A stretch of 38,621 nt of DNA from Deltaproteobacteria bacterium (GTDB lineage: Bacteria > Desulfobacterota > Binatia > Binatales > Binataceae), in contig PLDK01000015.1 in the NCBI GenBank assembly GCA_003135135.1, positions 1-38,621 of the forward strand. The letters run 5' to 3'. This document shows, in pieces, positions 819-28,516 of this stretch. The first letter of the stretch is position 1. Every line of letters starts with the position of its first letter. Below the pieces are notes generated by a model. It was not told the DNA's origin and made no database searches. It saw only the letters and a program-made list of their open reading frames with translations. A program made the position numbers and the translations under genes.

Positions 819-1676
819 ATGAGACGAAAAATTACGATTCTTGCAGTAGCCGCGATAGCGGTAATCGGGCTGGCCAGAGGCCACGCCTGGGCGCTCGGAA
901 CTGAGACGCCAGGGGCGGGCCTTACGGGAACAGTCCATGACTTCACGGGCGGTTTTTCCGGCGCGCTGCCCACAACGCCCATCGGCCAGTGCACCTTCTG
1001 TCACACGCCGCATGGTGCAATCTCGACCACACTGTTGTGGAACCATGAACTGTCGGGGCAAACGTACAATTGGGATATCCCCGCGACCACGGCAGGCACC
1101 CAATTCCCGACGATCGTCGATCAAACCTGGCAGGGACCGACGGCGAAGTGCCTGAGCTGTCATGACGGCACAGTGGCAATCGGCGCGATCAACTGGTTCG
1201 ACTCCGGCCACGGCGGTAAGGGAGCTTGGGCGATACCCACGGGCGGAACATCGAAAACGTCGCCGTACTATGCCAACCCGATCATCAACAAGTTTGCCGG
1301 TCTCCAAGGCCTGAGCAATAGCGGTAGCGCCGCGACCCTGTCGGGCGTACATCCGGTTGCGATGCCGTATCCTTATGGCCAAGTGGCGAACACGTACAAT
1401 GCCGTCACGACCGGCGGAGCTTTCCAGCCCAGCCAATGGTTCAGCCCGCCACAAGGGAACGTCCGTCTTTACATGCAGACGGGCAGCAGTGTCAGCCTTG
1501 GCTACAACGGAGCCACCAGCTGGGTAAATCCCAGCCTGTCGGCTAACTCCGGCATGGAATGCTCGTCCTGCCACGACGTGCACAACAAGCTAACCAAAGA
1601 TGGCTACCTCCTGGTCGGACTCGGGACCGGCACCGGAGCCACCTATCTCTGCAACATGTGCCATAACAAGTACTAG
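819..1676 (+). CDS. Secreted tetraheme c-type cytochrome
   Basis: A 285-residue protein with a Sec signal peptide (MRRK basic start, hydrophobic core to about residue 20, likely cleavage after AWA near 25). Four c-heme motifs are visible: CTFCH (58-62), CLSCH (111-115), CSSCH (248-252) and CNMCH (278-282), with further histidines available for distal ligation. The 'CTFCHTPH' opening is the doubled-CXXCH signature of periplasmic or extracellular multihemes. The start is fixed by a strong ribosome site, GAGGGAGG at 808-815. The gene stands alone between an AT-rich promoter region and a strong terminator, so it can be expressed at its own level next to the porin-cytochrome operon. By heme number and size it could be an extracellular carrier comparable to Geobacter OmcE, but this is an analogy; no filament-forming property can be read from the sequence. 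Confidence 0.88.
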   Translation: MRRKITILAVAAIAVIGLARGHAWALGTETPGAGLTGTVHDFTGGFSGALPTTPIGQCTFCHTPHGAISTTLLWNHELSGQTYNWDIPATTAGTQFPTIVDQTWQGPTAKCLSCHDGTVAIGAINWFDSGHGGKGAWAIPTGGTSKTSPYYANPIINKFAGLQGLSNSGSAATLSGVHPVAMPYPYGQVANTYNAVTTGGAFQPSQWFSPPQGNVRLYMQTGSSVSLGYNGATSWVNPSLSANSGMECSSCHDVHNKLTKDGYLLVGLGTGTGATYLCNMCHNKY

Positions 1677-1697
1677 GTTCTGGCATCGATTCAGCAG

Positions 1698-1737
1698 CGA
1701 AGGCCCGGCACGATGTGCCGGGCCTTCGCGTTTTTTT
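1698..1737 (+). terminator. Strong rho-independent terminator of the tetraheme cytochrome gene
   Basis: A 13-bp perfect stem (1698-1710 with 1716-1728), five-base loop, then seven consecutive T at 1731-1737, located 21 bases after the stop codon. This is the clearest intrinsic terminator in the window and makes the cytochrome a monocistronic unit. Confidence 0.93.
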
Positions 1738-1974
1738 GCTGCCAACGCTTGGCAATCCGGCATATCAGGAACGAGTCCAGCCTGTTTTGCGGGTTCGCGG
1801 GATGGCTGTCTCCTTTGGGTTCTCTTCGCAGTGGCTTGATCCCAAAGGGAGCATCCAAATTCCAAAGATCTTCATTTTCTTATCTCAAGGTTTCAGCATC
1901 TTGAGCGGAGCTTCTAGGGCACAGTCCTTGCGATACACGTTTCTCGGCAAAAGGTTCCTCGGAGAACTGTTAAA

Positions 1975-3099
1975 ATGATTGCTCAAAAGACGTTCTGCAC
2001 GAAGGTTGCAAGGTGGATCGCTCTGGGCGTGATCGTCCTGGCTGCCGGCTGCGCGGCGCAAAAGCCGCCGGAGGAGCCAAGTCCGGCGTGGCCGCCCCCT
2101 CCACAGCAGGCCCGGCTCAAATTCGTGCGCACCATCTCGAGCGAAGACGATGTCGTGCACAACACCACGTTCACGCAATCGGTGGCCAATTTCCTTGCCG
2201 GAACGAAGCCGACGCCTGCACAAATCGTGGAACCAGACGGACTTGCGGTCTCCGACGATGGCAGCGTGCTCTACGTCTCGGACCGTGCGCAGGGCGCGGT
2301 GTTCGTGTTCGACTTCGGCAAGAAGAAGTTTCTCAAGGTCGGGGCGGACAAGGGGGGGTTGGAGTGGCCGATCGGAGTGGCGCTGGATGGCGACCAGAAC
2401 ATTTATGTCGCGGAGCAGGGCAAGAAAGCCATCACGGTATTCGATCCGAGCGGGAAACAGCTTCGTTCCATCACCGACCCCAGCCTGGAGCGGCCTTGCG
2501 GCATCGCGATCGACCGCGAGCGCAGGCGCCTTTATGTGGCCGATACGTCGCACGCAACGTCCAAGGAGCATACGGTCAAAATCTTCAGTCTCGACGGAAA
2601 GCTGGTTGGAAAAATCGGCGGACTGAAAGGCTACGCTCCGGGGCATTTCCTGTTTCCGACCTACGTCTGGGTTGACAGCAACGGCGATGTGTACGTGACG
2701 GATACGATGAACTGCCGGGTGCAAAGGTTCAGCCCAGAGGGGAAATATATCCGCAGCTACGGTGAGCGCGGCGATGCGTGGGGACAGTTCAACCGGCCCA
2801 AGGGCGTGGCGCTGGACACCTTCCACAACGTTTACGTTGTGGACTCCGGATGGAGCAATGTCCAGATTTTCAATCCGCAGGGGCAGATCCTGCTGTTCTT
2901 TGGCGGCCGCGGGCCGCTTCCGGGGATGCTCAAGAACCCCACGGCGCTGGCGATCGACAAGAACAATCGCATCTACGTCGGCGACTACTTGAATCACCGG
3001 GTCGAAGTTTACCAACTGGTCAACACCACTGCGGCTGACAGCATGCCTGAATCCGGGGCGCCAGCGGCGGCGCCGGCCGCGGATCAGCCGAAGAACTGA
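1975..3099 (+). CDS. NHL-repeat beta-propeller lipoprotein (first paralogue)
   Basis: A 374-residue protein with a lipoprotein signal: a hydrophobic stretch ending in VLAAGC with Cys26 as the probable lipidation site. A Pro-rich linker follows, then six NHL-type repeats of the form 'P.G(V/I)A.D....(Y/V)V.D......V..F...G', for example around residues 90, 135, 180, 230, 280 and 325. This predicts a six-bladed propeller. The C-terminal ~20 residues are Ala/Pro-rich. A GGAG motif lies 10 bases before the ATG. It shares the N-terminal phrase 'AWPPPPQQARLKFVRTIS' in similar form with the NHL protein at 6295-7383, so the two are paralogues in the same locus. NHL genes also occur beside multiheme nanowire cytochromes in Geobacter, for example near omcS. 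A scaffold or cytochrome-binding role at the outer membrane is inferred. Confidence 0.85.
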   Translation: MIAQKTFCTKVARWIALGVIVLAAGCAAQKPPEEPSPAWPPPPQQARLKFVRTISSEDDVVHNTTFTQSVANFLAGTKPTPAQIVEPDGLAVSDDGSVLYVSDRAQGAVFVFDFGKKKFLKVGADKGGLEWPIGVALDGDQNIYVAEQGKKAITVFDPSGKQLRSITDPSLERPCGIAIDRERRRLYVADTSHATSKEHTVKIFSLDGKLVGKIGGLKGYAPGHFLFPTYVWVDSNGDVYVTDTMNCRVQRFSPEGKYIRSYGERGDAWGQFNRPKGVALDTFHNVYVVDSGWSNVQIFNPQGQILLFFGGRGPLPGMLKNPTALAIDKNNRIYVGDYLNHRVEVYQLVNTTAADSMPESGAPAAAPAADQPKN

Positions 3100-3306
3100 G
3101 CCAACGCGCTTGCAGGCGAACCGAGTCTGGAATGAAACGAAAGCGATTGGCCGCAAGTGTCAGATGAAGGATGGAATGAGCGGACGGGGTCAGGGCGAGC
3201 ATCCAGGCTCATCCAAATGCTGAGCGAATCGAGAGAGGCCCCCGATGCCATCCAGTTCTCCGACAGCAACGGTTCCGCGATGGCGGGCTGGTAGCGGGCA
3301 ATCGCA

Positions 3307-4221
3307 ATGTTGGCTCGAAAGCGCGGTGTGTTACGGAGCTTGGTCGTCGCGCTGTGCGCGATTGGGTGGGGAGCGTTCGTGATTGGCGGATGCAGTGAGG
3401 AATCGCGCTACTCAGTGCTGTCCTTCTTCTTTGAGGGCGCGCCCAAACCCGGACAGAAAACCCAGTGGCAGCAAGTTGCCCATCTGCCGCGCCGTCCTCC
3501 GCCGGCAAAAGCGACTCCCACGCCAGCACCGGTCGCCGTAGTGGCGGAGAAGTATCCGTTCGGATGGCTGCCTGCGTTGCTGAAGACCCTGCCTCACGAC
3601 GCGGCCGGCTACCCCGACATGGTGGCCGCGTTCAAGGAAAAGAAAATCGATCCGCTGCCAGGCGTTGAACAAGACCACGTCGTGCCGAAGCCGAAGAAAA
3701 TCGCCGACATGGACATCACGTTGATCCCCAAGGGTAAGACCAAGGTCATCTTCTCACACGCGATTCATACCACCCTGGTCACTTGCAAGAGCTGCCATCA
3801 GACCCCGTTCAAAATGACGACCGGGGAAAAGCTCTCGATGGACGATTGCGCGATGTGCCACGAAAAGGTGGCATTCCCGATCAAGGGCGAGTGCGTGCGC
3901 TGTCATCCGGCGATGAAGAAGAAGCCGCCCAAGGTGCCGCCCAAGGAAAAGCTGCTGGACGGCAGGATCACGCTGGCGCGCGCCAAGAGCAGCGATGCCA
4001 ACCTCAGTGGAATACCGCCGGCCAGCTTCCCCCATCTGCCACACCGCGTGGCCTTCAGATGCTACGCATGCCACCCCACGGTCTTTCCGATGAAGGAGGA
4101 AGGCACGAAACCGATCACGATGCAGGAAATTTCCTCAGGCAAGTTCTGCGGCGTCTGCCATAACGGCAAGATCGCATTCTCGGGCGACGATCTCGGGAGT
4201 TGCAGCCGATGCCATTCCTGA
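3307..4221 (+). CDS. Hexaheme lipoprotein cytochrome c (c7/c3-like)
   Basis: A 304-residue protein. The N-terminus has a hydrophobic segment ending in VIGGC, giving a probable lipidated Cys29. A Pro/Ala/Lys-rich linker runs to about residue 140. The C-terminal half has six CXXCH motifs: CKSCH (160-164), CAMCH (181-185), CVRCH (196-200), CYACH (252-256), CGVCH (281-285) and CSRCH (299-303). Distal-ligand histidines appear in 'FSHAIH' (149-154) and 'FPHLPH' (241-246), typical of class III/c7 cytochromes. No good ribosome site precedes the ATG. The 3' end overlaps the start of the beta-barrel gene by 13 bases. A lipidated, linker-tethered multiheme translated together with an outer-membrane barrel is what a periplasmic-side conduit subunit should look like; that role is inferred. 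Confidence 0.88.
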   Translation: MLARKRGVLRSLVVALCAIGWGAFVIGGCSEESRYSVLSFFFEGAPKPGQKTQWQQVAHLPRRPPPAKATPTPAPVAVVAEKYPFGWLPALLKTLPHDAAGYPDMVAAFKEKKIDPLPGVEQDHVVPKPKKIADMDITLIPKGKTKVIFSHAIHTTLVTCKSCHQTPFKMTTGEKLSMDDCAMCHEKVAFPIKGECVRCHPAMKKKPPKVPPKEKLLDGRITLARAKSSDANLSGIPPASFPHLPHRVAFRCYACHPTVFPMKEEGTKPITMQEISSGKFCGVCHNGKIAFSGDDLGSCSRCHS

Positions 4222-6293
4222 GCACTACAGCGATCCGCACGTCATTTCGGCTGGTCCTGGTCGCATCGATCTTGATAATCTTCACGAGCGGAAATGGGTA
4301 CGCATTTTCGCTGGCTTCCTGGGTTCCCTCCGAGGGCGACTTCGCCTTGGGCCAGTGGCAGGGCGGGGTCATCGGAGGTTACGAGTGGGAAGATATGCAG
4401 ACGAGCACGAACGGCAGCGCCACTTCCGTCGTGCGAAACAGGTTCGACGAAGACGTCTATCTCAGAAACAACGCCTTTTATCTCATGGACCCGCGGCTGC
4501 TGTCGGGCAGCGCCGGTGTCAACCTCGACTTTTACCAGGAAAACGACAAGTACAACGGCGCAAATGAGCATCAGGACGGCACGCTCATCGGCTTTGACGT
4601 GAATGCCATTGTGCTGGGGGAAAAGCCGTACACCGGCAACTTGTTTGCTCATCGCAGTGAAAATGACACCAGCACGGACTTTGGAGGCCAGACTTACAGC
4701 CTCAACCAGAGTTTCGGCGCGATGGCCACACTTCGGCAGGACAGTTTCCTGCGCGAAGCGCTCCCATATTTCTCCGCCGACGTCTATGCCCGCCAGGAAG
4801 AGGTGGACCAGTCCACGACACAGTTCGGCGAGACCTTTAGGGTCAACGAAACCCGCGAGATTGCCGGGGTTGACGCCGAGAAAGGGTTCCGGTCTGCGGA
4901 CCTCGACCTCACCTACCAGTTCGTCAACGACAGCTATACCGGAAGCATTCCGTACAGCTTCGTCACCCAATGGGCGAGCCTCGACTACAGTCTGGACTTC
5001 GGGGCTACCCTGAACCGCAGATGGGATTCCCGGATCAGCTATTTAAGCCGCACCGGCAACGGCGTGGACGAATCATTCCTGTACGTTGACGAACGGCTGC
5101 GCATCGATCATTTCAAAAACCTGTCCACGACCTACGAGTACCTCCTCATAGACACCAATACCCAGGGTCAAGAGGACATCGACAATACCGGCACGTTCCA
5201 GGTTCAGTATCAGCCGTTCCGAAACCTGGTGAATACTCTCAGCTTTCAGGCGGCTTACGAGTCGTTCACGCCGCAAGGTCACCAGGACTTCATCGCGGTG
5301 GAGGATAGCCCCGACTACAGCCACCCGATCCCCTGGGGCGGGATCTTCATTCTCGGCGGCGATGGGCGTTACGAAATCGATCAATCGCACATCAGCGGAC
5401 CGGTCACTGTCCTAGATGAAAAGCACACCGCACCGTCCTTTTTCGGCCCCGGAATCGGATTCACCCTGAGCCAACCGTTTGTTGTTACCACGACCATCGT
5501 CATGTACGACACCCGTGGCGGAACCGGCGGCTCACAAAGAGTCCTGACCAGGCTGGGGGTGGATTACGTCGTCGAGGCGCGGGGTCAGTTGACGAAGATA
5601 GTGATCCTTCCGACCTCGGTCAGAATTCTGCCTGGCGACCCGCTTGAGGTCAGCTACTCCTACGCGGTTGCGCCCGATGGGCGGTATTCGACCACCAACT
5701 TGTCGGGAAATGTGGGCGTGACTTACGGTTGGATCTCGGTGCTCGGTTCGTACCAGCAGTCGAAGCAGTCGATGCAGAGCGGGGTCGGCGCGCAGTATCT
5801 GTACAACATGCGCCAGGAAAACGCCCAGCTCGATCTGCACAAGGACTGGGAATGGGTTGATGCCCGGGGCAGCGCTCTCTACCAGATCTATCACGCGGAA
5901 TCTCCATCCTTTGGTGCTTTCGACTACACCATGCAGAATTACGGCGAGTATCTGACCTTCCGGCCCGGATGGAACATGACCCTTCATGTCGATGGCAACG
6001 AGATGTATACCGACTACACTGTGCAACCGACACGCCGCGACTCGGACCTTGATTTCGAGACCTCGCTGGACCGCTACTTTATGTCGGGAAATTACTTCAC
6101 GGCGTTCGCCCGGGCGCGCCAAGCTGAGGAGACAGCGTACCCGACCGAGACCGACTACGAGGCAGGCATAAGAGGCAATTTCCGGTACGGCAAAATCTTC
6201 ATCTGGCCGTGGATATCGTGGATCAACAGAACTTACGGCCCGACCAAGACCAACGATCCTCACATAATGCTGAAGATTGGACGGGACCTGTGA
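4209..6293 (+). CDS. Large outer-membrane beta-barrel, candidate porin of a cytochrome conduit
   Basis: About 694 residues. The N-terminal signal peptide has a hydrophobic core 'LVLVASILIIFTSG' with probable cleavage near YAFS. The rest is alternating amphipathic strands rich in Tyr, Thr, Asp, Asn and Gly with Gly/Asp turns and no long hydrophobic helix, ending in a strand 'IMLKIGRDL'. This is the profile of a barrel with more than 20 strands. I chose the ATG at 4209 over a TTG at 4200 because GGGAG (4195-4199) is correctly spaced from the ATG. The coding region overlaps the hexaheme lipoprotein by 13 bases and stops one base before the next GTG start, so translation is coupled. Barrels of this size next to multiheme cytochromes form the sheath of porin-cytochrome complexes (Geobacter Omb/ExtB, Shewanella MtrB types). 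I cannot tell which family it belongs to. Confidence 0.82.
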   Translation: MPFLSTTAIRTSFRLVLVASILIIFTSGNGYAFSLASWVPSEGDFALGQWQGGVIGGYEWEDMQTSTNGSATSVVRNRFDEDVYLRNNAFYLMDPRLLSGSAGVNLDFYQENDKYNGANEHQDGTLIGFDVNAIVLGEKPYTGNLFAHRSENDTSTDFGGQTYSLNQSFGAMATLRQDSFLREALPYFSADVYARQEEVDQSTTQFGETFRVNETREIAGVDAEKGFRSADLDLTYQFVNDSYTGSIPYSFVTQWASLDYSLDFGATLNRRWDSRISYLSRTGNGVDESFLYVDERLRIDHFKNLSTTYEYLLIDTNTQGQEDIDNTGTFQVQYQPFRNLVNTLSFQAAYESFTPQGHQDFIAVEDSPDYSHPIPWGGIFILGGDGRYEIDQSHISGPVTVLDEKHTAPSFFGPGIGFTLSQPFVVTTTIVMYDTRGGTGGSQRVLTRLGVDYVVEARGQLTKIVILPTSVRILPGDPLEVSYSYAVAPDGRYSTTNLSGNVGVTYGWISVLGSYQQSKQSMQSGVGAQYLYNMRQENAQLDLHKDWEWVDARGSALYQIYHAESPSFGAFDYTMQNYGEYLTFRPGWNMTLHVDGNEMYTDYTVQPTRRDSDLDFETSLDRYFMSGNYFTAFARARQAEETAYPTETDYEAGIRGNFRYGKIFIWPWISWINRTYGPTKTNDPHIMLKIGRDL

Positions 6294-6294
6294 G

Positions 6295-7383
6295 GTGAAT
6301 AATTTGCGCGCGATGTTCAAGCCGATAATCGCCGTCCTGGCGCTTGCAACTGCGCTGGGCTGCCAGCCGGCGGGGGGCCTCAACGGACTCGCCGGAGGAA
6401 ATGCGCCGTCATCGGTCTCCGAGGACATCGTCTGGCCACAGCCGCCGAATCCGGCGCGAATCCGCTATGTGCGCAGTATTTCCGTCCCGGGCGATGTCGG
6501 GATCAAGCGCGGATTCTTTGGAACGCTCCTCGACGTAGTGACTCGCAGGGAACAGGAGCGTTTCATCCGTCCGACCGGCGTCGCCGAGAGCGACGGCGCG
6601 ATCTACGTGGCCGATCCCGGGGCGCCGGCGCTGTGGATCTTCGACTCACAGAAGCAGGCCTCAGTCGCAGTCCGTGAACTCGGCGGGGACGCGCTGCTCT
6701 CGCCGGTGGCGGTGACGCCGGAGCGCGACGGACGCGCCTTCGTGGCGGACTCGCTCATCAACAAGGTCTTCCTGGTCGATCGCGGTGGAAAGATGGTGAG
6801 CACAATTGCGGATAGCGGGCTCAAACGCCCGGTTGCGCTCGCCTGGGACAATGCTAGCGGCAGGCTCTACGTGGCAGACGCGATTGGACAGCAGGTCGTC
6901 GTCTATGGGAGCGGCGGACAACGTCTGCTGAGCTGGGGAAGCAGGGGCTCTGGAGACGGCGAGTTCAATTTCCCTGCTTACGTCGCGCTGTCACGCTCTG
7001 GAGAGGTTCTGGTTACCGACGCACTGAACTACCGCGTGCAAGCGTTCGATCAGAACGGGAAGTTTCTCTGGAAGATGGGCCGGCAAGGCGACGGCTCGGG
7101 CGACTTCGCCGCGCCCAAGGGAGTCGCGACCGACAGCGAGGGACATCTCTACGTGGTCGATGCGCTGTTCGACGGCGTGCAGATTTTCGATCGCGAAGGA
7201 GCGCTGCTGCTCGGATTCGGCACAAACGGCCGGGCGCCGGGAGAGTTCTGGTTGCCGACCGGAGCCTTCATCGACGCGCGCGATCAGATCTACGTCGCCG
7301 ATTCCTACAACCAGCGGGTACAAGTGTTCGAGTTTGTCGGCCGTTCCGGTGATTCACACCCGGCGGAAACCGCGAAGCGCTGA
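6295..7383 (+). CDS. NHL-repeat beta-propeller lipoprotein (second paralogue)
   Basis: About 362 residues from the GTG at 6295. Other possible starts are TTG 6304, preceded by GAGGTG, and ATG 6313. The signal segment ends in ATALGC, an acceptable if not ideal lipobox. Six NHL repeats follow, with strands such as 'RPTGVAESDGAIYVADPG', 'FPAYVALSRSGEVLVTDA' and 'LPTGAFIDARDQIYVADS', predicting a six-bladed propeller. The segment 'WPQPPNPARIRYVRSIS' matches the corresponding segment of the NHL lipoprotein at 1975-3099, so the two arose by duplication. The gene begins one base after the barrel stop and overlaps the 12-heme cytochrome start by one base (TGATG). This places it firmly in the conduit operon; a structural or assembly role at the outer membrane is inferred. 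Confidence 0.85.
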   Translation: MNNLRAMFKPIIAVLALATALGCQPAGGLNGLAGGNAPSSVSEDIVWPQPPNPARIRYVRSISVPGDVGIKRGFFGTLLDVVTRREQERFIRPTGVAESDGAIYVADPGAPALWIFDSQKQASVAVRELGGDALLSPVAVTPERDGRAFVADSLINKVFLVDRGGKMVSTIADSGLKRPVALAWDNASGRLYVADAIGQQVVVYGSGGQRLLSWGSRGSGDGEFNFPAYVALSRSGEVLVTDALNYRVQAFDQNGKFLWKMGRQGDGSGDFAAPKGVATDSEGHLYVVDALFDGVQIFDREGALLLGFGTNGRAPGEFWLPTGAFIDARDQIYVADSYNQRVQVFEFVGRSGDSHPAETAKR

Positions 7384-9110
7384 TGACGGTTCGGCGGCAA
7401 GAGCAAGGGACGATGGCGTTGGCGCGGCGGTTGATGCTGGCGCTCGCGCTGGTGGTGCTCGCGGCGGGCAGCGCCAGCGCGCAGATCGAGAGCACCGTCC
7501 ACAACCTGACCGCGACCAGCGCGAAGATGCACGGCGACACCAAAGCCGTAGGCGTCTGCATCTTCTGTCATACCCCGCATAACGCGCGGCCTAGCCAAGG
7601 GCTGTGGAACCGCGACTTTCCGGCCGTTACCTACAAGCTCTATACGAGCAGCACGCTCCAGGCGCAGATGTCGCAGCCCAACGGCTCCTCGCGGCTGTGT
7701 CTCTCATGCCACGACGGGATTGTGGCGCTGAGCAACATGCGCGTGGCGCCTATCAATGGTCCGGTCGCGGCAATGGCTCCGCTCACCGGCGCAGCCTCGT
7801 TTGGGACTGACCTCTCCAACGACCATCCAATCTCGTTCATATACAACAGTGCGCTCGCACTCAGCACGGGTGACCTCGTCGATCCCAAATCCCTGCCGCA
7901 GAGCGCGCCGCTGGACAACGAGAAACAACTCCAGTGCACTTCGTGCCACGATCCGCACCTGAATCGCCCCAACTTCCTGCGAATCGACGATCACTTCGGC
8001 GCCGATTGCACGGTGTGCCATCTCGACCACAACTGGCGTAGTTCCAGTCATGCGACTGCGGCGCAGACGTGGCGCGGCGGCAAAGCCACCGCTCCATGGC
8101 CCGCGGACGGCTACGCAACCATGGCTGAAAACGCATGCGAAAGCTGCCATCGGGTCCATGCCGCGCCGCATCCGCAGTTGCTGCTCGCGCAAACCGTCGA
8201 GGAGAAAAACTGCACCATCTGCCACAACGGCATGCTCGCCAAGCAAAACATCGAAGTCGAACTCGTGAAGCCCTCGAGTCATCAGGTCCAAGGCAGGCAG
8301 TGGATCCACAGTCCGAATGAAGATCCGGTGACGATGCCGCGCCATGTCACCTGCGTTGACTGCCACAACCCGCACGCGACGACTTCCTCGGCGCGCGGTA
8401 CCAAGCCGCCGCTGCTTCCCGGTGCGCTGCGCGGGGTCAGTGGGGTCACGGTCGGGGGCGTGCCTATCAAGGAAGCCAATTTCGAGTACGAGGTCTGCCT
8501 GAAGTGCCATGGGATGACCGAGCCGACGGGGATGGGCATCCTGCGCCAGGACATCACCCGCAACATCGGGCGCAAGATCAATCCGGCCAACATGTCATAT
8601 CATCCGGTGGCGGCTCCCAACCGAAATGTGCGGATGACCGGCCTGATGACCCCGTACAACTCATCCAGCATGATTGGCTGCACGGATTGTCATAACAACG
8701 ATCAGTGGACGCCCGGCGGCACGGCGCCGCGCGGGCCGCACGGGTCGCGTTTCGAGCCGATCCTTCAGATGGAATACGACACGGTGGACCCGAGTACGGA
8801 GTCCTATGCGAGCTACGCGCTTTGCTATAAATGCCACGAGCGCAGCGCCATCCTGTACAACACCATCGGGTTCCCCCACAAGCAGCACGTAGTCGATCAG
8901 CGCACCTCGTGCGCGGTCTGTCATGACGCACACGGCTCGCGGCAGGGCACGTACCTGATCAATTTCATGACGATGTCGCAGCAAGGAGCACCGGTGGTGA
9001 AGCCCTCCAAGAGCGGACGCTTGGAGTATGTTCCCGACCCGGCGCGTCCCGGCCATGGGAAGTGTTACATGACCTGCCATAACACCGACCACAACCCGGC
9101 GTCGTACTAA
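7383..9110 (+). CDS. Secreted large multiheme cytochrome c, 11 CXXCH plus one CX3CH
   Basis: A 575-residue protein. Eleven CXXCH motifs start at residues 59, 106, 185, 209, 252, 277, 324, 372, 433, 481 and 510, and a twelfth site at 561-566 has the spaced form CYMTCH. Many free histidines can act as distal ligands. The first two motifs, in 'CIFCHTPHN' and 'CLSCHDG', match those of the tetraheme protein, implying common ancestry. The signal peptide is hydrophobic from about residue 16 and cleaves near ASA-Q34. The ATG at 7383 overlaps the upstream stop (TGATG); a second ATG at 7413, preceded by AAGGGA, would give a neater signal peptide and is equally likely. There is no lipobox, so it is probably the soluble or surface-exposed terminal cytochrome of the conduit. 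The substrate (metal oxide, humics, partner cell) is unknown. Confidence 0.9.
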   Translation: MTVRRQEQGTMALARRLMLALALVVLAAGSASAQIESTVHNLTATSAKMHGDTKAVGVCIFCHTPHNARPSQGLWNRDFPAVTYKLYTSSTLQAQMSQPNGSSRLCLSCHDGIVALSNMRVAPINGPVAAMAPLTGAASFGTDLSNDHPISFIYNSALALSTGDLVDPKSLPQSAPLDNEKQLQCTSCHDPHLNRPNFLRIDDHFGADCTVCHLDHNWRSSSHATAAQTWRGGKATAPWPADGYATMAENACESCHRVHAAPHPQLLLAQTVEEKNCTICHNGMLAKQNIEVELVKPSSHQVQGRQWIHSPNEDPVTMPRHVTCVDCHNPHATTSSARGTKPPLLPGALRGVSGVTVGGVPIKEANFEYEVCLKCHGMTEPTGMGILRQDITRNIGRKINPANMSYHPVAAPNRNVRMTGLMTPYNSSSMIGCTDCHNNDQWTPGGTAPRGPHGSRFEPILQMEYDTVDPSTESYASYALCYKCHERSAILYNTIGFPHKQHVVDQRTSCAVCHDAHGSRQGTYLINFMTMSQQGAPVVKPSKSGRLEYVPDPARPGHGKCYMTCHNTDHNPASY

Positions 9111-9272: not shown

Positions 9273-10478
9273 TTAAACGATCGGTACGAAAGGCATGATC
9301 GCGTCGCGTAATGCCTTGGTCCAGCCGAGCCAGCGTTGATCGGGGCCGCTGATGCCGTCCCACAACATGCTGTTGCATACATAGGCCACCGCGGTGCCGG
9401 ATTCCGGATGCGCGAACGCCATGCGGCCGCCCGCGCCCGCATGCCCGAACGATCCTGCACCCAGCATCGGCTCGATCGCGCGCGGCAACTCGAAACCCAG
9501 GCCAAATCTCTGCGGCCCCGGCCCGACCAGCGGCATCAGAGAAGCAGGCGCGCTGAGGCCCTCGTCCTGCGATTCGCGTGCGCGCTCCATCGTCTCGCGC
9601 GTGAGTAGGCGGACACCATCGATCTCGCCGATGCAGGCGGCGTACATCTTTGCAAGCGCGCGCGCATTCGCGATGCCATTGCCGAACGGCAGCTCGGCGG
9701 CGTGACTTTCGCGCGTGTTGATGAGATTCAACCCCTTGGCGCCAGTTGTGATCATGTTGAACACCGCGCGCACCGGGCGTGAATTCATATCCAGTCCCAG
9801 GCCGGAGAACAATGCGTGACACTGCTCCTCGGTTAGCTGTGCCGCGGGAACGATATGTGGCGCGACGCGATGTTCCTGCTCGGACGGAAGGCCGATCCAC
9901 AGGTCAAGCTTGAGCGGACCGGCGATTTCCGTATCGACAAACTCGCCAACAGTTTTCCCAGAGACGCGCCGGACCAGCTCGCCGGCGAGATAGCCAAAGG
10001 TCAAAGCGTGATAGAAGTAAGCCGAGCCCGGTTTCCACCATGGCTCCATGTTCGCGAGCGCCGCGGTACAGCGGTTCCAGTCTAAGAGATTGCGGCCAGA
10101 TATTTCGGCTTCCTCGTCGAAGCCCATAAGACCCGCTCGATGTGCAAGCAGGTCGCGAACCGTGATTGCCGCCTTTTCCTTGGCTGCGAACTCCGGCCAA
10201 TAGCGTGCTACAGGAGCGTCATAGTCGATCAGTCCGCGCTGGGCGAGCATGTGCACGCACACCGCCGTGACCGCCTTGGTGCACGACATCAAGACCGTGA
10301 TTGTGTCCGCGGTAAACGGCCGGCTATTGGGCTTGTCCATTCCCGTCCACAGATCGACCACTCTCCTGCCGTGCCGATACACGCATAGCTGCGCGCCGCC
10401 TTCGTCCTGGGCCTGTCCCTCCGCGAATGCGTCGCGCACCGCCTCGAACCCTTCTTCCACCGTTCCTTCAGCACGCAT
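9273..10478 (-). CDS. Serine hydrolase of the beta-lactamase/class C esterase family
   Basis: A 401-residue cytoplasmic protein with no signal peptide. It has the three signatures of the penicillin-binding-like fold: SCTK (Ser65 nucleophile, Lys68), a Tyr motif 'YFYHALTFG' around Tyr156 with the His variant seen in EstB-type esterases, and 'GHAGAGG' (His346) in place of KTG. This family hydrolyses carboxylic esters or small amides. The open frame runs much further upstream, but that extension is antisense to the membrane-protein gene at 10599-11081 and is low complexity and highly charged. The ATG at 10478 has GGGG at good spacing and begins the conserved region. The gene converges on the cytochrome operon and is divergent from the membrane-protein/aldehyde-oxidoreductase operon. 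The natural substrate is not predictable. Confidence 0.87.
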   Translation of the reverse strand: MRAEGTVEEGFEAVRDAFAEGQAQDEGGAQLCVYRHGRRVVDLWTGMDKPNSRPFTADTITVLMSCTKAVTAVCVHMLAQRGLIDYDAPVARYWPEFAAKEKAAITVRDLLAHRAGLMGFDEEAEISGRNLLDWNRCTAALANMEPWWKPGSAYFYHALTFGYLAGELVRRVSGKTVGEFVDTEIAGPLKLDLWIGLPSEQEHRVAPHIVPAAQLTEEQCHALFSGLGLDMNSRPVRAVFNMITTGAKGLNLINTRESHAAELPFGNGIANARALAKMYAACIGEIDGVRLLTRETMERARESQDEGLSAPASLMPLVGPGPQRFGLGFELPRAIEPMLGAGSFGHAGAGGRMAFAHPESGTAVAYVCNSMLWDGISGPDQRWLGWTKALRDAIMPFVPIV

Positions 10479-10598
10479 AATCGACACCCCATCGATTGTA
10501 GCATGCGTTCCAGGAGCGCTGGTGCGTCGGCGTCGTTGCCCGCGCACCGCAGAATTACGCTTGCTCCGACGCGACTCGAACGATACAAGCGATGCTTG

Positions 10599-11081
10599 AT
10601 GCTTAGTCTCCGCTTGGCCGTGCTGTTCATCCATATCGTCGCCGTGATCGTGGCGCTGGGCGGCTCGCTGTTCAGCACTTTCGCACTCGCTCCCGTTTTG
10701 GCCGCGGAACTCGATCCGCCCGCGCGGCTGCGCGTCGCCCGCCGAATCGTTCGCCGCCTGGGCGCGATCGTGCTTGCCTCGCTGGCCGTGCTGGTTGTGA
10801 CGGGAATCTTCAACGTGCTGTTCATCGGCGGCGTTTCGATTCTGCTTGCGATCAAATTGATCCTCGTCGTTGCCGTTATCGCGCTGGCCCTTTATCAATA
10901 TGGAAGCATCGGCGTGCAAATCTGGAGGATCTCGGCCGCTGGTCCGAGTCCGGAAGTCGCAGACCTCCAGGCGCGTTTTCGCCGCGTCGGTCTGACCGTC
11001 GGCTCGATCGTGTTGCTGATTGTCTATCTCTCGATCGGACTCACGCGCGGCTCAGGCGCGATTGTCACGTCCATTCGTTGA
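10599..11081 (+). CDS. Four-helix membrane protein, CopD/DUF4149-like
   Basis: About 160 residues from the ATG at 10599, with four hydrophobic helices. Helix 1, 'LFIHIVAVIVALGGSLF', carries a His and a small-residue GG typical of CopD-domain and related haem- or copper-handling membrane proteins. Basic segments, for example 'RLRVARRIVRRLG', separate the helices. Upstream in-frame sequence lacks membrane character and overlaps the leader of the divergent hydrolase, so the shorter start is preferred; no strong ribosome site is seen. It heads a same-strand run through 15738, with a 10-base gap to the next gene. In this context it may anchor, or accept electrons from, the periplasmic aldehyde oxidoreductase, possibly as a cytochrome b-like protein. 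That is inference from context and one conserved His. Confidence 0.6.
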   Translation: MLSLRLAVLFIHIVAVIVALGGSLFSTFALAPVLAAELDPPARLRVARRIVRRLGAIVLASLAVLVVTGIFNVLFIGGVSILLAIKLILVVAVIALALYQYGSIGVQIWRISAAGPSPEVADLQARFRRVGLTVGSIVLLIVYLSIGLTRGSGAIVTSIR

Positions 11082-11091
11082 GGGTCCACAG

Positions 11092-11646
11092 ATGCCACGA
11101 AAAAAATCGCCGCGCGCAACGCCCGCCTGGATGCGGCGGCTTACCGCGCTCGCGGTCGCGCTCGGCGTTATCGCGACGCTCAGCTACGGCACGGGCGCGC
11201 ACATAGCAGTGCGATACCTCAATCCGTCGTTGGGCGCGTGGTGGAATTCCAACGAGTTTGCAATCTTCCAGTGCGCCGCGGCGGCGGTCGGAATGTTGAT
11301 CGGAATTCGCTTTGGCGCGCGACTGGTAAATGGCGGCGCGCTCAGAAACCGCTCGATGATAGCCGCGGTAATTGCTTGCGCGCTCGTGCTGCCGGTCGTC
11401 GCGCGGGTCGGCGCCGAAATTGCCCGGCTTAGATTCACCAGCGGCGCATCCGCCAACGCATGGCTCATCGACCGCTTCGGCTACGACGTGGGAATGTTTC
11501 TTGACAAGCTTCTGATGGCAGGCGTTTACTCGATCAAAATCGCGGCATTTGCGCTTCCGGCCGGGATGGTTCTCTTCGGTGCGGCGATTGCTATCTTCAT
11601 GACTGCAAAGCCTGTTGGCGACACCGCTGCCGCAATTTCCAGATGA
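11092..11646 (+). CDS. Membrane protein of unknown function in the aldehyde oxidoreductase operon
   Basis: A 184-residue protein from the ATG at 11092, which has GAGGG seven bases upstream. A basic N-terminus (MPRKKSPR) precedes about four hydrophobic helices: near residues 18-35, 60-78, 92-112 and 148-170. I recognise no domain. The gene starts 10 bases after the CopD-like gene, and its stop overlaps the ATG of the 2Fe-2S subunit (ATGA), so the three are probably co-translated. A role as membrane partner of the periplasmic enzyme is inferred from position only. Confidence 0.65.
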   Translation: MPRKKSPRATPAWMRRLTALAVALGVIATLSYGTGAHIAVRYLNPSLGAWWNSNEFAIFQCAAAAVGMLIGIRFGARLVNGGALRNRSMIAAVIACALVLPVVARVGAEIARLRFTSGASANAWLIDRFGYDVGMFLDKLLMAGVYSIKIAAFALPAGMVLFGAAIAIFMTAKPVGDTAAAISR

Positions 11647-12314
11647 ATCGAGACGACCGCAAGCCCCGCAAACCGCCCGGCATCAGCCGCCGATCGTTCA
11701 TCAAGGGCGCCGGCGCGGTCGCGGCCGCGGCAGGCCTGGTGCGCGTGCCGCCGGCAGCCGCCGATGAAAAGCGGCTACCGGCAGGTGTCGTTGAAAAGCT
11801 CGGGCCTGAAGCTACGACGATCGAACTGAGCATCAACGGCAAGCCCGTGGCGCTCGAGATCGAGCCGCGCGTAACCCTGCTAAGCGCGATACGCGAACAT
11901 CTTGGACTGACGGGCACGAAACTCGTCTGTGATCGAGGCGCGTGCGGAGCATGCACCGTGCATCTCGACGGCAAACCCGTGACCTCGTGCATGATGCTGG
12001 CTGTCGATGCGCGTGGACACCAAATCACCACCATCGAAGGTCTCGGCACGCCGTCGAATATGCATCCCGTGCAGGCCGCATTCGTCGAAACCGACGCGCT
12101 GCAATGCGGGTTCTGCACACCGGGGATGGTGATGTCGGTCGCGGCCGCGCTCGAGCGCAATCCGGCGGCTACGACTGACGAAATCAAACACGCAACCGCC
12201 GGCAATATCTGCCGATGCGGCACTTATCCGCACGTCTTCGCGGCCGCGCTCAGAGCCGTTAAGCCTGCGCCTGCCGGTTCCGCGCGTTCGCTCCGCGCAA
12301 CCAAGGACGCCTGA
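11643..12314 (+). CDS. Periplasmic aldehyde oxidoreductase, 2Fe-2S subunit (PaoA/YagT-like)
   Basis: A 223-residue protein that carries electrons from the Mo site through two [2Fe-2S] clusters. The N-terminus has a Tat signal with 'SRRSFIKGAG' (15-24) and a hydrophobic Ala stretch, so the folded complex is exported. The plant-ferredoxin-type cluster is ligated by Cys96, Cys101, Cys104 and Cys116; the second, all-helical cluster has CGFC (155-158) and CRC (190-192), as in the whole xanthine oxidase family. The stop codon overlaps the ATG of the large subunit. Tat export on the small subunit plus a separate FAD subunit matches the E. coli PaoABC arrangement, which detoxifies aromatic aldehydes in the periplasm. 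The substrate here is not known. Confidence 0.92.
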   Translation: MNRDDRKPRKPPGISRRSFIKGAGAVAAAAGLVRVPPAAADEKRLPAGVVEKLGPEATTIELSINGKPVALEIEPRVTLLSAIREHLGLTGTKLVCDRGACGACTVHLDGKPVTSCMMLAVDARGHQITTIEGLGTPSNMHPVQAAFVETDALQCGFCTPGMVMSVAAALERNPAATTDEIKHATAGNICRCGTYPHVFAAALRAVKPAPAGSARSLRATKDA

Positions 12315-14521
12315 TGTCGCGGCGCGTCACGCTCGACCTCGGCTTTGCGGGCAACACGCGCGACGTCACGGTCGTCATTCCCGACGACGAGCCCACGCCG
12401 TGGCAATGGGGCGAGCGCCTGTCCGTGGTCGGCAAGCCCGCGCCGCGCGTCGACGGACCACTGAAAGCGACGGGTGCTGCGCGTTACACTTACGACATCG
12501 AATTGCCCGGGATGCTTTACGGCGCGATCCTGCGCAGTCCGTGGCCGCACGCGCGGATTCGCAACATCGATCTTTCCGCGGCTGAGCATCTCGATGGCGT
12601 GCGCGCGGTTCTTGCTCTTGAAGATCGCGAAATTCGTTTCGCCGGCCAGGAAGTCGCAGCCGTTGCCGCTGTCAGCTCCGACCTCGCCGCCGACGCGCTC
12701 AAGTTGATCAAAGTCGATTACGAAACGATGCCGTTCGTGGTTGACATGGACGCCGCGATGGCGGATTCCGCCCCGCGCGTTTTCGGTAGCGGATCCAACG
12801 TCGGCAGAACCTCGACTTCGAGCGTCGGCAATGTCGCACGAGGACTCGAGGTCGCGGCAAACACGATCGAGGCTGCCTACACGACGGCCGTGCAGACGCA
12901 CGTCTGCCTCGAGACGCACGGCGCGGTTGCGAGCTTCAACGCGGCGGGAGACCAGCTCACGGTATGGTGCTCGACGCAGGGCATTTTTTCCGTGCGCGAC
13001 GATCTGGCGGTGTATTTCAGCCTGCCGCCCAATAACGTGCGCGTAGTCTGCGAATTTCTTGGCGGCGGCTTCGGCTCGAAATTCGGCGCAACCCCCGAAA
13101 TGATTGTTGCCGCGCGGCTGGCCAGGGCGGCCGGTGTGCCGGTCAAGGTGATGCTCCCGCGTGGCGACGAGCATCGTTCCACGGGCAACCGCCCGAACTC
13201 GGAGCAGAAGGTCAGGCTGGGGGTCGATCGCGACGGAAAGTTGACCGCGATCGAGGTCGTCGCACGTGGCAGCGGCGGGATCAACGGCGGTGCGGGCAGC
13301 GCGGATCCGTTCAAGTCGGTGTATCGATGCGCCAATATCCGCACCGAGGAACGCAACATCTATACGAACGCCGGGCCAGCGTCTCCGATGCGCGCGCCCG
13401 GCTGGCCGCAGGGATGCTTCGCGCTGGAACTTGCGATGGACGAGATGGCGCGCAAGGCGGGAATCGACAGGCTCGAGTTCCGCCGCCGCAACAGCGACAA
13501 CCCGGTCCGCGCCGCCGAATACGAGATCGGCGCGCGCGCGTTCGGATGGGCCGAAAAAAATTCGGCGCCGAAATCCGACGGCGCCGTCAAGCGCGGAGTC
13601 GGCGTCGCGTCGGCCGAGTGGCACGCGGTCGGAGTGTCGGGCCCGGAGGCGCAGGCGATCGCGCATCGCGACGGCAGCGTCGAGGTCCGCGTCGGCACCC
13701 AGGACATCGGCACCGGCACGCGCACGATTCTCGCGATCGTCGCGGCTGAGGAACTCGGCCTGCCCGTGGACCGCGTGAAATCCGAAATCGGCGACACCCG
13801 ATTTCTCTTTTCAGTACCCAGCGGCGGCAGCCTGAGCGCGCCCTCGAACACGCCCGCGGTGCGCCAGGCCGCGGCGCATCTCAAGGACAAGCTGTTTCGG
13901 ATCGCGGCGCCGATACTCAGCGCCGAACCCGGCGACCTCGAGGCGTCCGACGGATTCATTCGGGTGCGCACCAACCCCTCGCGCTCGCTCGCGTTTGCCG
14001 ACGTATGCAAGCGAATCCCCGGCGATTCGATTTCCGCGCAGGGCGAGCGCGTGCCCAACTACGAAGGTTTTCGCACCGATCAGGCGGGATGTCAGTTCGC
14101 CGAAGTCGAGGTCGATACCGAAACCGGGATCGTCCGCGTGACACACGTCGTCGCGGTGCACGACGCGGGACGGATTATCGATCCGCTGATGGCGCGCAGC
14201 CAGGTCAACGGCGGGATCCTGATGGGAATCGGGTTCGCGCTGTTCGAGGATCGCCGGATGGATCCGCAGCTCGGCATCATGGTGAATCCCACGATGGACG
14301 ACTACAAGCTTCCCGGCTCGCTCGACGTCCCGCGGATCGACGTGACGTTTTTCGAAGTCGCCAACGGTATCACCAACACCGGCGTGATGGGACTCGGCGA
14401 GGTGGCGCATGTCGCCAGCGCGGCCGCGGTCGCATGCGCGGTGTACGACGCGATCGGCGCGCCGGTGCGTTCACTTCCGATGACGCCCGATCGCGTGCTG
14501 GCGGCGCTGGGACACGCCTGA
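12314..14521 (+). CDS. Aldehyde oxidoreductase molybdenum-cofactor subunit (PaoC-like)
   Basis: A 735-residue protein, close to the length of the PaoC/YagR-type large subunit. It opens with a ~40-residue lead, then the aldehyde oxidase/xanthine dehydrogenase a/b hammerhead ('GKPAPRVDGPLKATGAARYT'). Mo-binding segments follow, including 'GGGFGSKFG' and 'GTQDIGTGTRT'. The C-terminus has 'GLGE' at 693-696, whose Glu is the base that activates the Mo-bound water in this family. It has no signal peptide of its own and would be exported by piggy-back on the Tat signal of the small subunit. Start and stop overlap or sit close to both neighbours. The region is very GC-rich, giving long antisense open frames that are not genes. 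Confidence 0.93.
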   Translation: MSRRVTLDLGFAGNTRDVTVVIPDDEPTPWQWGERLSVVGKPAPRVDGPLKATGAARYTYDIELPGMLYGAILRSPWPHARIRNIDLSAAEHLDGVRAVLALEDREIRFAGQEVAAVAAVSSDLAADALKLIKVDYETMPFVVDMDAAMADSAPRVFGSGSNVGRTSTSSVGNVARGLEVAANTIEAAYTTAVQTHVCLETHGAVASFNAAGDQLTVWCSTQGIFSVRDDLAVYFSLPPNNVRVVCEFLGGGFGSKFGATPEMIVAARLARAAGVPVKVMLPRGDEHRSTGNRPNSEQKVRLGVDRDGKLTAIEVVARGSGGINGGAGSADPFKSVYRCANIRTEERNIYTNAGPASPMRAPGWPQGCFALELAMDEMARKAGIDRLEFRRRNSDNPVRAAEYEIGARAFGWAEKNSAPKSDGAVKRGVGVASAEWHAVGVSGPEAQAIAHRDGSVEVRVGTQDIGTGTRTILAIVAAEELGLPVDRVKSEIGDTRFLFSVPSGGSLSAPSNTPAVRQAAAHLKDKLFRIAAPILSAEPGDLEASDGFIRVRTNPSRSLAFADVCKRIPGDSISAQGERVPNYEGFRTDQAGCQFAEVEVDTETGIVRVTHVVAVHDAGRIIDPLMARSQVNGGILMGIGFALFEDRRMDPQLGIMVNPTMDDYKLPGSLDVPRIDVTFFEVANGITNTGVMGLGEVAHVASAAAVACAVYDAIGAPVRSLPMTPDRVLAALGHA

Positions 14522-14537
14522 CAGGTTTGGAATTGCG

Positions 14538-15530
14538 ATGAACCGATTCGAGGTGATCACGCCCGCCGATCTCGCAAGCGCCTCACAACTGCTTGCCCAG
14601 GACGGCCACGTTGCATTCGCGGGCGGCGTCGATGTCATCGATCTGATGAAGCAAGGCATCGTATCTCCAACCGCGCTGGTGAATCTGAAAGGGCTGAAGG
14701 AACTCGGTGGAATCGAGGTGCGGCCGTCGGGAGAACTTCGCCTCGGGGCGACCGCGAAGTTGAGCGAAGTCGCCGAGCATCCCGCGATCCGCGCCCGATT
14801 CACCGCGATTGCCGAGGCGGCGAGCGAGACGGCCACGCCACAGATTCGCAATCTTGGCACGGTCGGGGGGAATCTCCTGCAGCGCCCGCGATGCTGGTAT
14901 TTTCGCAATCCGGACGTGAATTGCCTGAAGAAGAGCGGCGACAAGTGCTACGCGTTCGGCGGCCTCAATCGTTACCACGCGATTTTGGGTGGCGATCCGG
15001 CGTTTATCGTGCATCCGTCGAATCTTGCGCCCGCGTTGATCGCGATGCGCGCGAGCGCGACGATCGTCGGACCGGCCGGCAAGCGCACGATAGAGCTCGA
15101 AAACTTCTTCACGCTTCCCACTGTCGATCCGAAGCGCGAAAATTCTCTCAAGCCCGGCGAAATAATCACCGAAGTGATCGTGCCTGCGCCGTCTGCGAGC
15201 GTCAGCAGCCATTACCTGGAGGCGCGGGAGAGGCAGAGCTTCGATTGGCCGCTGGTAAGCGTCGCGATCGCCCTCGATCGCGCACCCGGTGCGAAGACTA
15301 TCCACGATGCGCGCGTGGTGATGGGCGCGGTGGCTCCGGTGCCGTGGCGATCGCACGAAGCGGAAGCCGCGCTCAAAGCCGGACCGCTCGACGAGCCGCG
15401 CGCTCGCGCCGCGGCCAAAGCCGCGCTGAAAGGCGCGCAGCCGATGTCCGACAACGCGTACAAGGTGGTGATGGCGAAGGTGATCGTGCGCCGCGCGATC
15501 ATGAGCGCCGCCGGTCTGGAGGCCGCCTGA
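14538..15530 (+). CDS. Aldehyde oxidoreductase FAD subunit with Fe-S insertion (PaoB-like)
   Basis: A 330-residue protein of the FAD-binding medium-subunit family. FAD contacts are visible as 'AFAGGVDVIDLMKQG' near the N-terminus and 'TPQIRNLGTVGGNLLQ' (100-115). An insertion with Cys119, Cys129 and Cys137 ('CWYFR....CLKKSGDKC') corresponds to the extra [4Fe-4S] loop of PaoB/YagS and 4-hydroxybenzoyl-CoA reductase beta subunits; only three cysteines are evident in the loop. The C-terminal CO-dehydrogenase flavoprotein domain includes 'ARERQSFDWPLVSVA'. It follows the Mo subunit by 16 bases and precedes the small Cys protein by one base. Together the three subunits make a complete enzyme. Confidence 0.92.
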   Translation: MNRFEVITPADLASASQLLAQDGHVAFAGGVDVIDLMKQGIVSPTALVNLKGLKELGGIEVRPSGELRLGATAKLSEVAEHPAIRARFTAIAEAASETATPQIRNLGTVGGNLLQRPRCWYFRNPDVNCLKKSGDKCYAFGGLNRYHAILGGDPAFIVHPSNLAPALIAMRASATIVGPAGKRTIELENFFTLPTVDPKRENSLKPGEIITEVIVPAPSASVSSHYLEARERQSFDWPLVSVAIALDRAPGAKTIHDARVVMGAVAPVPWRSHEAEAALKAGPLDEPRARAAAKAALKGAQPMSDNAYKVVMAKVIVRRAIMSAAGLEAA

Positions 15531-28420: not shown

Positions 28421-28421
28421 G

Positions 28422-28439
28422 TTCCATAGATTAGTGGAA
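28422..28439. promoter_or_regulatory. TTCCA-N8-TGGAA inverted repeat in the divergent promoter region
   Basis: An exact 5-bp inverted repeat with an eight-base spacer begins one base outside the ArsR-rhodanese start codon, in an AT-rich tract that extends to 28455. Position and symmetry fit an ArsR-family operator controlling both the regulator and the divergent efflux operon. Confidence 0.45.
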
Positions 28440-28516
28440 TATATTCTGTACGTCAACGGGCGCCCTGCTGTCTGGCGCGGCAGCGCCGCAGCAGGGAGCG
28501 CACGACGGAGGAAGCC

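Follow-up and report, generated by a model that had tools for sequence, protein, structure and literature searches.

A conserved cytochrome, NHL and beta-barrel locus from a Binataceae bacterium as a probable Uet-like outer-membrane electron conduit

We describe here a six-gene locus that probably encodes an outer-membrane electron conduit working like the Uet (undecaheme) pathway. The locus lies on a 38,621-nucleotide stretch of DNA from a deltaproteobacterium of the family Binataceae (contig PLDK01000015.1 of assembly GCA_003135135.1), hereafter referred to as the window. Six open reading frames (ORFs), all on the plus strand between positions 819 and 9110, make up a set of cytochrome, NHL and barrel genes (Table 1), which is the arrangement given by an original prediction made from the letters of the window. 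The sequences themselves show which genes are present, that they are conserved as a unit, and that the tetraheme cytochrome and the first third of the undecaheme cytochrome are homologous to OmcE.

Conservation of the gene set

To the original prediction of an outer-membrane electron conduit, the condition had been attached beforehand that the gene set be conserved in relatives; co-occurrence was found both within the class of the window and in named loci outside it and, together with the predicted barrel, it supports the conduit. We searched 148 genomes of the class with an undecaheme profile (at 1e-60) and a barrel profile (60 rows, at 1e-10). The undecaheme profile matched 15 genomes, 12 of them over the full length (>600 bits, 14 genes); in G132, G139 and G140 the match was confined to the N-terminal half, and these three were excluded from the full-length count. 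The barrel profile matched 18 genomes, 14 of which had a best E of ≤1.2e-88, while four short matches (41–55 bits, in family-f1 genomes) were not counted as barrels. All 12 genomes with a full-length undecaheme also had the barrel (Fisher p 6e-16, uncorrected for genome relatedness); a strong barrel match without a full-length undecaheme was seen in two class genomes, G108, where the barrel is at a contig edge, and G140. The two genes were on the same strand and 1,020–1,275 bases apart for 14 of 14 undecaheme genes, a spacing of about one NHL gene. Within the window's own family, the barrel was found in 2 of the 41 family-f1 genomes searched, both in the window's genus (2 of 7). Among genomes drawn around G164 (class) and G148 (order), centre genomes counted, the undecaheme was present in 13 of 369 and 2 of 20, respectively; a further draw that overlaps the first had it in 7 of 185.

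Beyond the class, we scanned a collection of 84,980 species with the undecaheme and kept the best 80 of at least 561 relatives (at least 585 stretches); genomes of two contigs occur twice among these 80 named loci. A contig scan with the barrel alone found no relative, and the undecaheme alignment was used instead. Gene order was taken from our own ORF picker rather than from curated annotation, and many loci are cut by contig ends. In a first round, a profile made from 11 class members found the barrel in 79 of 91 loci. As 11 of these 91 owed their selection to the barrel, a fair count is limited to the 80 named loci retrieved with the undecaheme, of which 68 have the barrel. Barrel, NHL and undecaheme genes were consecutive in 43 of the 80, and an NHL gene stood immediately upstream of the undecaheme in 66. 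Undecaheme, barrel, two NHL genes and an ORF with four CXXCH motifs occurred together in 50 loci; in these locus counts and in the terminator counts below, 'tetraheme' means any such four-motif ORF, OmcE homology not having been confirmed individually. Ten of the 80 loci had the halves swapped, with NHL–undecaheme first and then tetraheme–NHL–cytochrome–barrel.

The cassette was found in Proteobacteria, Verrucomicrobia, Planctomycetota, Nitrospirae, Bacteroidetes, KSB1, Ignavibacteria, Calditrichota, Zixibacteria and other lineages. Carriers that seem from their records to be isolates are Aestuariivivens sediminis S-DT1-15 (L095), Desulforhopalus sp. IMCC35007 (L075) and Planctomycetales bacterium ZRK34 (L057), the last with an incomplete set in the part inspected. 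After the sister genome, the nearest relatives of the window's undecaheme were proteobacterial (L028 of Thiohalobacter, 55%; L029, 53%), as were those of its barrel (L053 of Ramlibacter; L029). Undecaheme and barrel had a common nearest neighbour in 36 of 71 loci, and barrel and tetraheme in 30 of 63. From these sequence relationships we infer that the cassette has spread as a unit with some re-assortment.

Three further observations concern the surroundings of the cassette. One class relative carries a second, divergent copy (L027; G049:C17:52595-54466), the undecaheme gene of which has one internal TGA and an ORF with 10 CXXCH motifs. An additional cytochrome with 13 CXXCH motifs often lies beside the cassette (L007, L021, L022, L027 and others). 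The gammaproteobacterial cassettes L124, L126, L127 and L144 adjoin a multiheme set and a cytochrome-b-like membrane protein, a possible quinone-side partner; the b561-type Pfam match (PF01292) refers to L124, the one locus examined for it.

The tetraheme cytochrome is a relative of OmcE

The profile of the tetraheme family aligned with OmcE (PDB 7tfs) from end to end (E 1.1e-36; profile 2–233 of 233, OmcE 2–232 of 232). Outside the heme motifs, His 40, 65, 178 and 255 of the tetraheme are conserved, in 92–100% of 38 aligned rows (one of which, L075:6141-6839, is a lipoprotein cytochrome included wrongly), and each of them aligns with a His in OmcE. The window protein is 90% identical to one sister and 27–43% identical to its relatives in the class. 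With homology over the full length, four hemes and matching distal His residues, its sequence identifies it as a relative of the OmcE nanowire protein along its whole length, and we propose that it acts as a wire subunit or carrier. The same profile matched a second solved cytochrome, PDB 9yuq (E 4.4e-32). That structure, matched through its chain N, contains 16 chains of a 218-residue OmcE-like cytochrome.

The tetraheme gene is followed by a terminator-like stem (folding z −6.85), and a nearly identical stem is present in the sister genome (L005, 5640–5670). Stems of this kind were found 3′ of 17 of 76 ORFs with four CXXCH motifs, compared with 12 of 456 other cassette genes (Fisher p 1e-8). 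This preference for the four-motif ORFs suggests that the tetraheme is made in excess. Over the whole region, terminator-like stems were not enriched over shuffled sequences (8 found, 7.8 expected).

The undecaheme cytochrome joins an OmcE-type domain to an MtrA-like part

The original prediction had left the heme number of the sixth protein at 11 or 12. Eleven CXXCH motifs are present, as they are in the undecaheme of most loci, and all 12 heme-motif His residues, that of the CX3CH motif included, were invariant in 50 of 50 aligned relatives. Because the CX3CH residues are invariant, the protein probably binds 12 hemes. A further 16 His positions were each occupied in at least 98% of the 50 relatives.

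The undecaheme profile matched OmcE (E 8.9e-46) over OmcE residues 5–232 of 232, with the match ending at profile position 210 of 567. We examined an AlphaFold2 (AF2) model of the protein, which had a predicted local distance difference test score (pLDDT) of 82.5 and a predicted TM-score of 0.81; three segments of the head (44–60, 66–69 and 120–122) had pLDDT below 50. By VIA comparison, which covered 11 chains, model residues 39–214 aligned with OmcE (7tfs) at Z 11.6 over 167 residues. Residues 141–527 aligned with 6r2q_A (Z 10.0, root-mean-square deviation 3.4, 218 of 265 residues), the next chains being OmcS (Z 6.1) and 8rv0 (Z 4.4). We take chain A of 6r2q to be MtrA from our reading of the Mtr-complex entry; its label in the sequence file reads 'Cystathionine beta-synthase'. 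The DmsE/MtrA family model (TIGR03508) was matched at 1e-5 by all 50 undecaheme members, and the window protein scored 53.9 bits (E 1.7e-14) against a curated cut-off of 192.2. By sequence, then, the undecaheme is related to the DmsE/MtrA family and is not a member of it.

These results describe the undecaheme as a complete OmcE-type domain (residues about 39–214, with the first four heme motifs) followed by eight further heme motifs, much of this remainder having an MtrA-like fold in the model. Because the model continues from the OmcE-type domain into an MtrA-like stave, the undecaheme appears a likelier partner of the barrel than the hexaheme lipoprotein. Our partial coverage of the literature yielded no published fusion of an OmcE-type domain with an MtrA-like stave, and one may be in print; the nearest case is in PMC12016550.

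The lipoprotein cytochrome upstream of the barrel

The hexaheme lipoprotein matched Cytochrome_C7 of Pfam (6.8e-22), TIGR04257 (8.6e-31) and PDB 3ov0 (7.3e-40). A cytochrome gene adjoined the barrel on its upstream side in 60 of 79 cases, the other 19 being without one by the spacing rule used. These cytochromes contained from 3 to 21 CXXCH motifs, most often five (33 of 60), and the one in L044 was of a different domain type, with Paired_CXXCH as its best match. Their N termini were much alike: a lipobox Cys followed, within about 12 residues, by an LxxFFDGVP-like segment was present in 53 of the 60, as opposed to 4 of 321 other ORFs with at least three CXXCH motifs. The pattern was written post hoc, after the sequences had been viewed, its first version matching 40 of 70 and the widened version 53 of 60. 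The four background matches were in L033, L043, L084 and L091, all of them loci without an adjacent upstream cytochrome by the spacing rule. An anchor that stays the same in front of a heme module that changes would be expected of a cytochrome sitting at the surface and docking on a barrel that is itself constant, and we propose a surface role for the hexaheme lipoprotein.

The original prediction had instead pointed to the hexaheme lipoprotein as the partner of the barrel; in this arrangement it would lie inside the barrel, with the undecaheme as the terminal cytochrome on the outer surface. The frequent adjacency of a cytochrome gene to the barrel, in 53 cases with the conserved signature, would suit this arrangement, and the trihemes of Uet are predicted to be periplasmic (PMC10734462). 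However, heme counts of 3 to 21 would be unusual in a membrane-spanning chain, the length of which should be fixed, several gammaproteobacterial cassettes without the lipoprotein retain barrel, NHL and undecaheme, and it is the undecaheme that combines a steady motif number with a model that aligns with MtrA. We therefore regard the hexaheme lipoprotein as a doubtful partner of the barrel, and this arrangement as unlikely.

The barrel

The AF2 model of the fourth protein is a large all-beta barrel (mean pLDDT 88.9) with a signal helix at residues 15–29 and about 30 long strands by our own count. At E≤1 its sequence matched nothing in Pfam or NCBIfam, and a PHROGs search gave nothing below E 0.1. 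In the VIA ranking MtrB (6r2q_B) came first (Z 18.0, 426 aligned) and FhuA next (Z 17.0). Foldseek listed TonB-dependent receptors first by E-value, and the highest TM-scores among the 50 rows shown were those of MtrB (0.43/0.45). Alignment by hhalign with eight MtrB_PioB members gave a probability of 58.8 (P 9.4e-5, 176 columns), compared with 1.0 for a control with eight TonB receptors and 13.3 for MtrB against TonB receptors; one control row used the last 520 residues of the TonB receptors. The models thus describe the barrel as MtrB-like with low certainty.

We considered whether the barrel and the NHL lipoproteins could form an apparatus for secretion and assembly by which the tetraheme and the undecaheme leave the cell to act as extracellular wires, no electrons passing through the barrel. 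Two propeller lipoproteins would suit assembly, the tetraheme belongs to the OmcE family, the weaker fold matches of the barrel include usher and LptD barrels, and the export route of cytochrome wires is described as unsolved (PMC12307469). On the other hand, these fold matches are generic, and a conduit requires an MtrA-like stave, such as the one encoded about 1.1 kb from the barrel; we judge the export apparatus improbable. A nutrient porin, of TonB type or another, that lies beside the cytochromes by chance, as the top Foldseek rows might suggest, is a very improbable identity for the barrel, since it is found next to all 14 undecaheme genes of the class and has the same neighbour in many named lineages, the TonB-receptor family was matched by none of 60 barrels, the hhalign probability with TonB receptors was minimal and the best listed TM-scores belong to MtrB.

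Proposed electron path

In the Uet-like conduit that we favour, the barrel would enclose the undecaheme in the way that MtrB encloses MtrA, and electrons would cross the membrane along the undecaheme. The lipid-anchored C7 cytochrome would dock at the outer side through its N-terminal lipobox–FFDGVP segment, in the manner of MtrC, and set the outward reach, and the two NHL lipoproteins would provide platforms for assembly or docking. The tetraheme, presumably in excess since its gene has a putative terminator of its own, would build an OmcE-type chain by stacking on the head of the undecaheme, which resembles OmcE. In MtrCAB, the N terminus of MtrA projects into the periplasm, and its C terminus and heme A10 are on the outward side (PMC7198977); by this precedent, the OmcE-type head would face the periplasm. 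Threading of the stave as in MtrA would place the head and the tetraheme chain in the periplasm, and an inverted stave would make the chain an extracellular wire. UetA is predicted to be extracellular in the account of Uet (PMC10734462).

Going a step further, we tentatively suggest that the undecaheme is a conduit stave beginning with a full OmcE-type subunit, so that the conduit would have a built-in socket for a tetraheme wire. Offered jointly with this, and as tentatively, is the view that the FFDGVP segment with its lipobox serves as a docking tag common to lipoprotein cytochromes of very different heme number. If the socket exists, MtrA-like threading would yield a wire bridging the periplasm to the outer membrane, and the inverted orientation an extracellular nanowire rooted in the membrane; either would be a genetically defined junction of wire and conduit. 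How bacterial wires plug into cells could then be tested, the question having become one of a defined gene set.

Several observations weigh against these proposals. The docking of head and tetraheme predicted by them failed in a crude covariation test of head and tail: for the tetraheme, rho was higher with the tail of the undecaheme (0.55) than with its head (0.45), and for the barrel it was higher with the head (0.38) than with the tail (0.30). Distances of barrel and tetraheme were uncorrelated beyond permutations (rho 0.13, permutation maximum 0.17). Likeness to MtrA received a Foldseek E of only 0.04 with the undecaheme model, and by sequence the C-terminal part alone gave a weak match to MtrA (E 0.017) and also one to OcwA (0.01). 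As to the barrel, the original prediction had called for a profile search against known conduit barrels. MtrB_PioB (PF11854) was matched by none of 60 barrels at E≤0.01, a PDB sequence search gave no match at E≤10, and in the VIA ranking MtrB leads TonB-type receptors by just 1 Z unit. The gene set is also not invariably together. Twelve genomes had a barrel-less locus, the seed profile finding the barrel elsewhere in seven of them and none in five; in G158 a distance of about 0.9 Mb separates the undecaheme from the barrel; and several gammaproteobacterial cassettes lack the upstream lipoprotein cytochrome.

Layout of the locus and other genes in the window

The coordinates of the locus are given in Table 1. 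The original prediction had the last four genes overlapping or touching. With the preferred starts, genes 3 and 4 overlap by 13 nt and genes 5 and 6 by 1 nt, but genes 4 and 5 are separated by 19 nt. Because the terminator-like stem follows gene 1, the six genes are not a single uninterrupted unit.

Table 1. Features of the locus in window coordinates; the signal peptide of protein 1 and the lipoboxes of proteins 2, 3 and 5 were read by eye from the sequence
Feature	Position	Strand	Remarks
Tetraheme c-type cytochrome, secreted	819..1676	+	285 aa; 4 CXXCH; signal peptide; OmcE-nanowire family by sequence
Terminator-like stem 3′ of tetraheme gene	1697..1729	+	15 bp GC-rich stem, T-run
NHL beta-propeller lipoprotein A	1975..3099	+	374 aa; Pfam NHL 5.8e-27; lipobox LAAGC
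Hexaheme lipoprotein, two C7 triheme domains	3307..4221	+	304 aa; 6 CXXCH; lipobox and FFEGAP segment
Outer-membrane beta-barrel (predicted)	4209..6293 (ORF 4200-6293)	+	likelier start ATG 4209, 694 aa; AF2 model
NHL beta-propeller lipoprotein B, between barrel and undecaheme	6313..7383 (ORF 6277-7383)	+	ATG 6313 likelier, 356 aa; Pfam NHL 5.4e-22; lipobox
Undecaheme/dodecaheme cytochrome	7383..9110	+	575 aa; 11 CXXCH and one CX3CH; OmcE-type domain, MtrA-like model

Elsewhere in the window, positions 11643–15530 hold a three-gene molybdenum hydroxylase of the xanthine dehydrogenase/CO-dehydrogenase type, with Fer2_2, MoCoBD and FAD-binding subunits. Two genes for serine hydrolases of the beta-lactamase family (PF00144) lie on the minus strand (9273–10919 and 18765–20237), as does a gene for a rhodanese-domain protein (27728–28456), the N-terminal stretch of which resembles an ArsR-type regulator by eye. 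At 28517–34238, outer-membrane-factor-like, membrane-fusion-like and resistance-nodulation-division (RND) efflux genes stand in a row; the RND gene was identified by ACR_tran (7.5e-147) and the other two by eye.

Comparison with known systems

The original prediction did not recognise the composition of the locus as that of a described system, a view that does not hold, as Uet has nearly the same kinds of part and a locus of Geoalkalibacter is also in print (PMC12016550). Uet is known from Ca. Tenderia electrophaga, Gallionella and others (PMC10734462, PMC5371394) and comprises the tetraheme UetA, the peptidylprolyl isomerase (PPIase) UetB, the barrel UetC, the C7 trihemes UetD, UetE and UetG, the NHL proteins UetH and UetI, and the undecaheme UetJ (PMC10734462). 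A tetratricopeptide repeat (TPR) gene belongs to the cluster (PMC5371394); we infer that it corresponds to UetF. Compared by part list rather than by sequence, the window and Uet share an undecaheme, a tetraheme, a C7 cytochrome, a barrel and two NHL proteins in one cluster. In the window, however, the trihemes are fused in one hexaheme lipoprotein, the gene order is unlike that inferred from Tel_ locus tags, and the six-gene cluster (819–9110), to which our search for them was confined, contains no PPIase or TPR gene. Because these two genes are absent from the cluster, we regard the locus as similar to Uet in its working, without counting it as a member in the strict sense. Two gammaproteobacterial loci, L139 and L141, with a tetraheme, two separate C7 trihemes, a barrel, NHL and an undecaheme, are intermediate and link the fused hexaheme of the window to the split trihemes of Uet. 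The published Uet gene order was not found in the surroundings inspected from the G164 and G148 draws, L139 and L141 coming nearest. Our survey suggests that Uet-like conduits are more widespread than is shown by reports on the Tenderiales and Gallionella (PMC10734462), the Leptothrix group, karst metagenomes and Ca. Dechloromonas occultata.

The locus Ga0056053_02426-02431 of Geoalkalibacter ferrihydriticus encodes homologues of MtoA and OmcE together with two NHL proteins, and is said by its authors to be without mtoB (PMC12016550). By this description, as opposed to sequence, it resembles the window in combining MtoA-like and OmcE-like cytochromes with two NHL proteins. Because barrels of the window's type escape MtrB models, one might sit there unrecognised.

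With MtrCAB, MtoAB and PioAB, the window locus shares a large barrel, a multiheme stave that is MtrA-like in the model and a lipoprotein cytochrome (PMC7198977). It differs from them in that its barrel has no MtrB_PioB sequence match, an OmcE-type domain fronts the stave, and there are in addition NHL lipoproteins and a separate subunit resembling OmcE. Compared with OmcE of Geobacter sulfurreducens (7tfs), for the filament of which an inter-subunit His ligand has been described in print, the window's tetraheme family aligns over the full profile and matches the four distal His positions, but it is diverged, tied to a conduit cassette and known here from sequence alone. Desulfovibrio ferrophilus likewise has multiheme cytochromes beside NHL proteins (DFE_0448-0451 and DFE_0461-0465), though the authors see no porin-cytochrome conduit there (PMC9769857).

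Finally, the OetABI and OmcX/OmcS cassette occurs in sulfate reducers that are partners of anaerobic methanotrophic archaea (ANME) and in Geobacter. Its wires are of the OmcS/OmcX type rather than the OmcE type, and OetI and the window's barrel were compared by description only. As in the window, a wire-forming cytochrome and a conduit appear to be encoded together, and the authors propose for that cassette that filament and conduit act in concert (PMC10553843).

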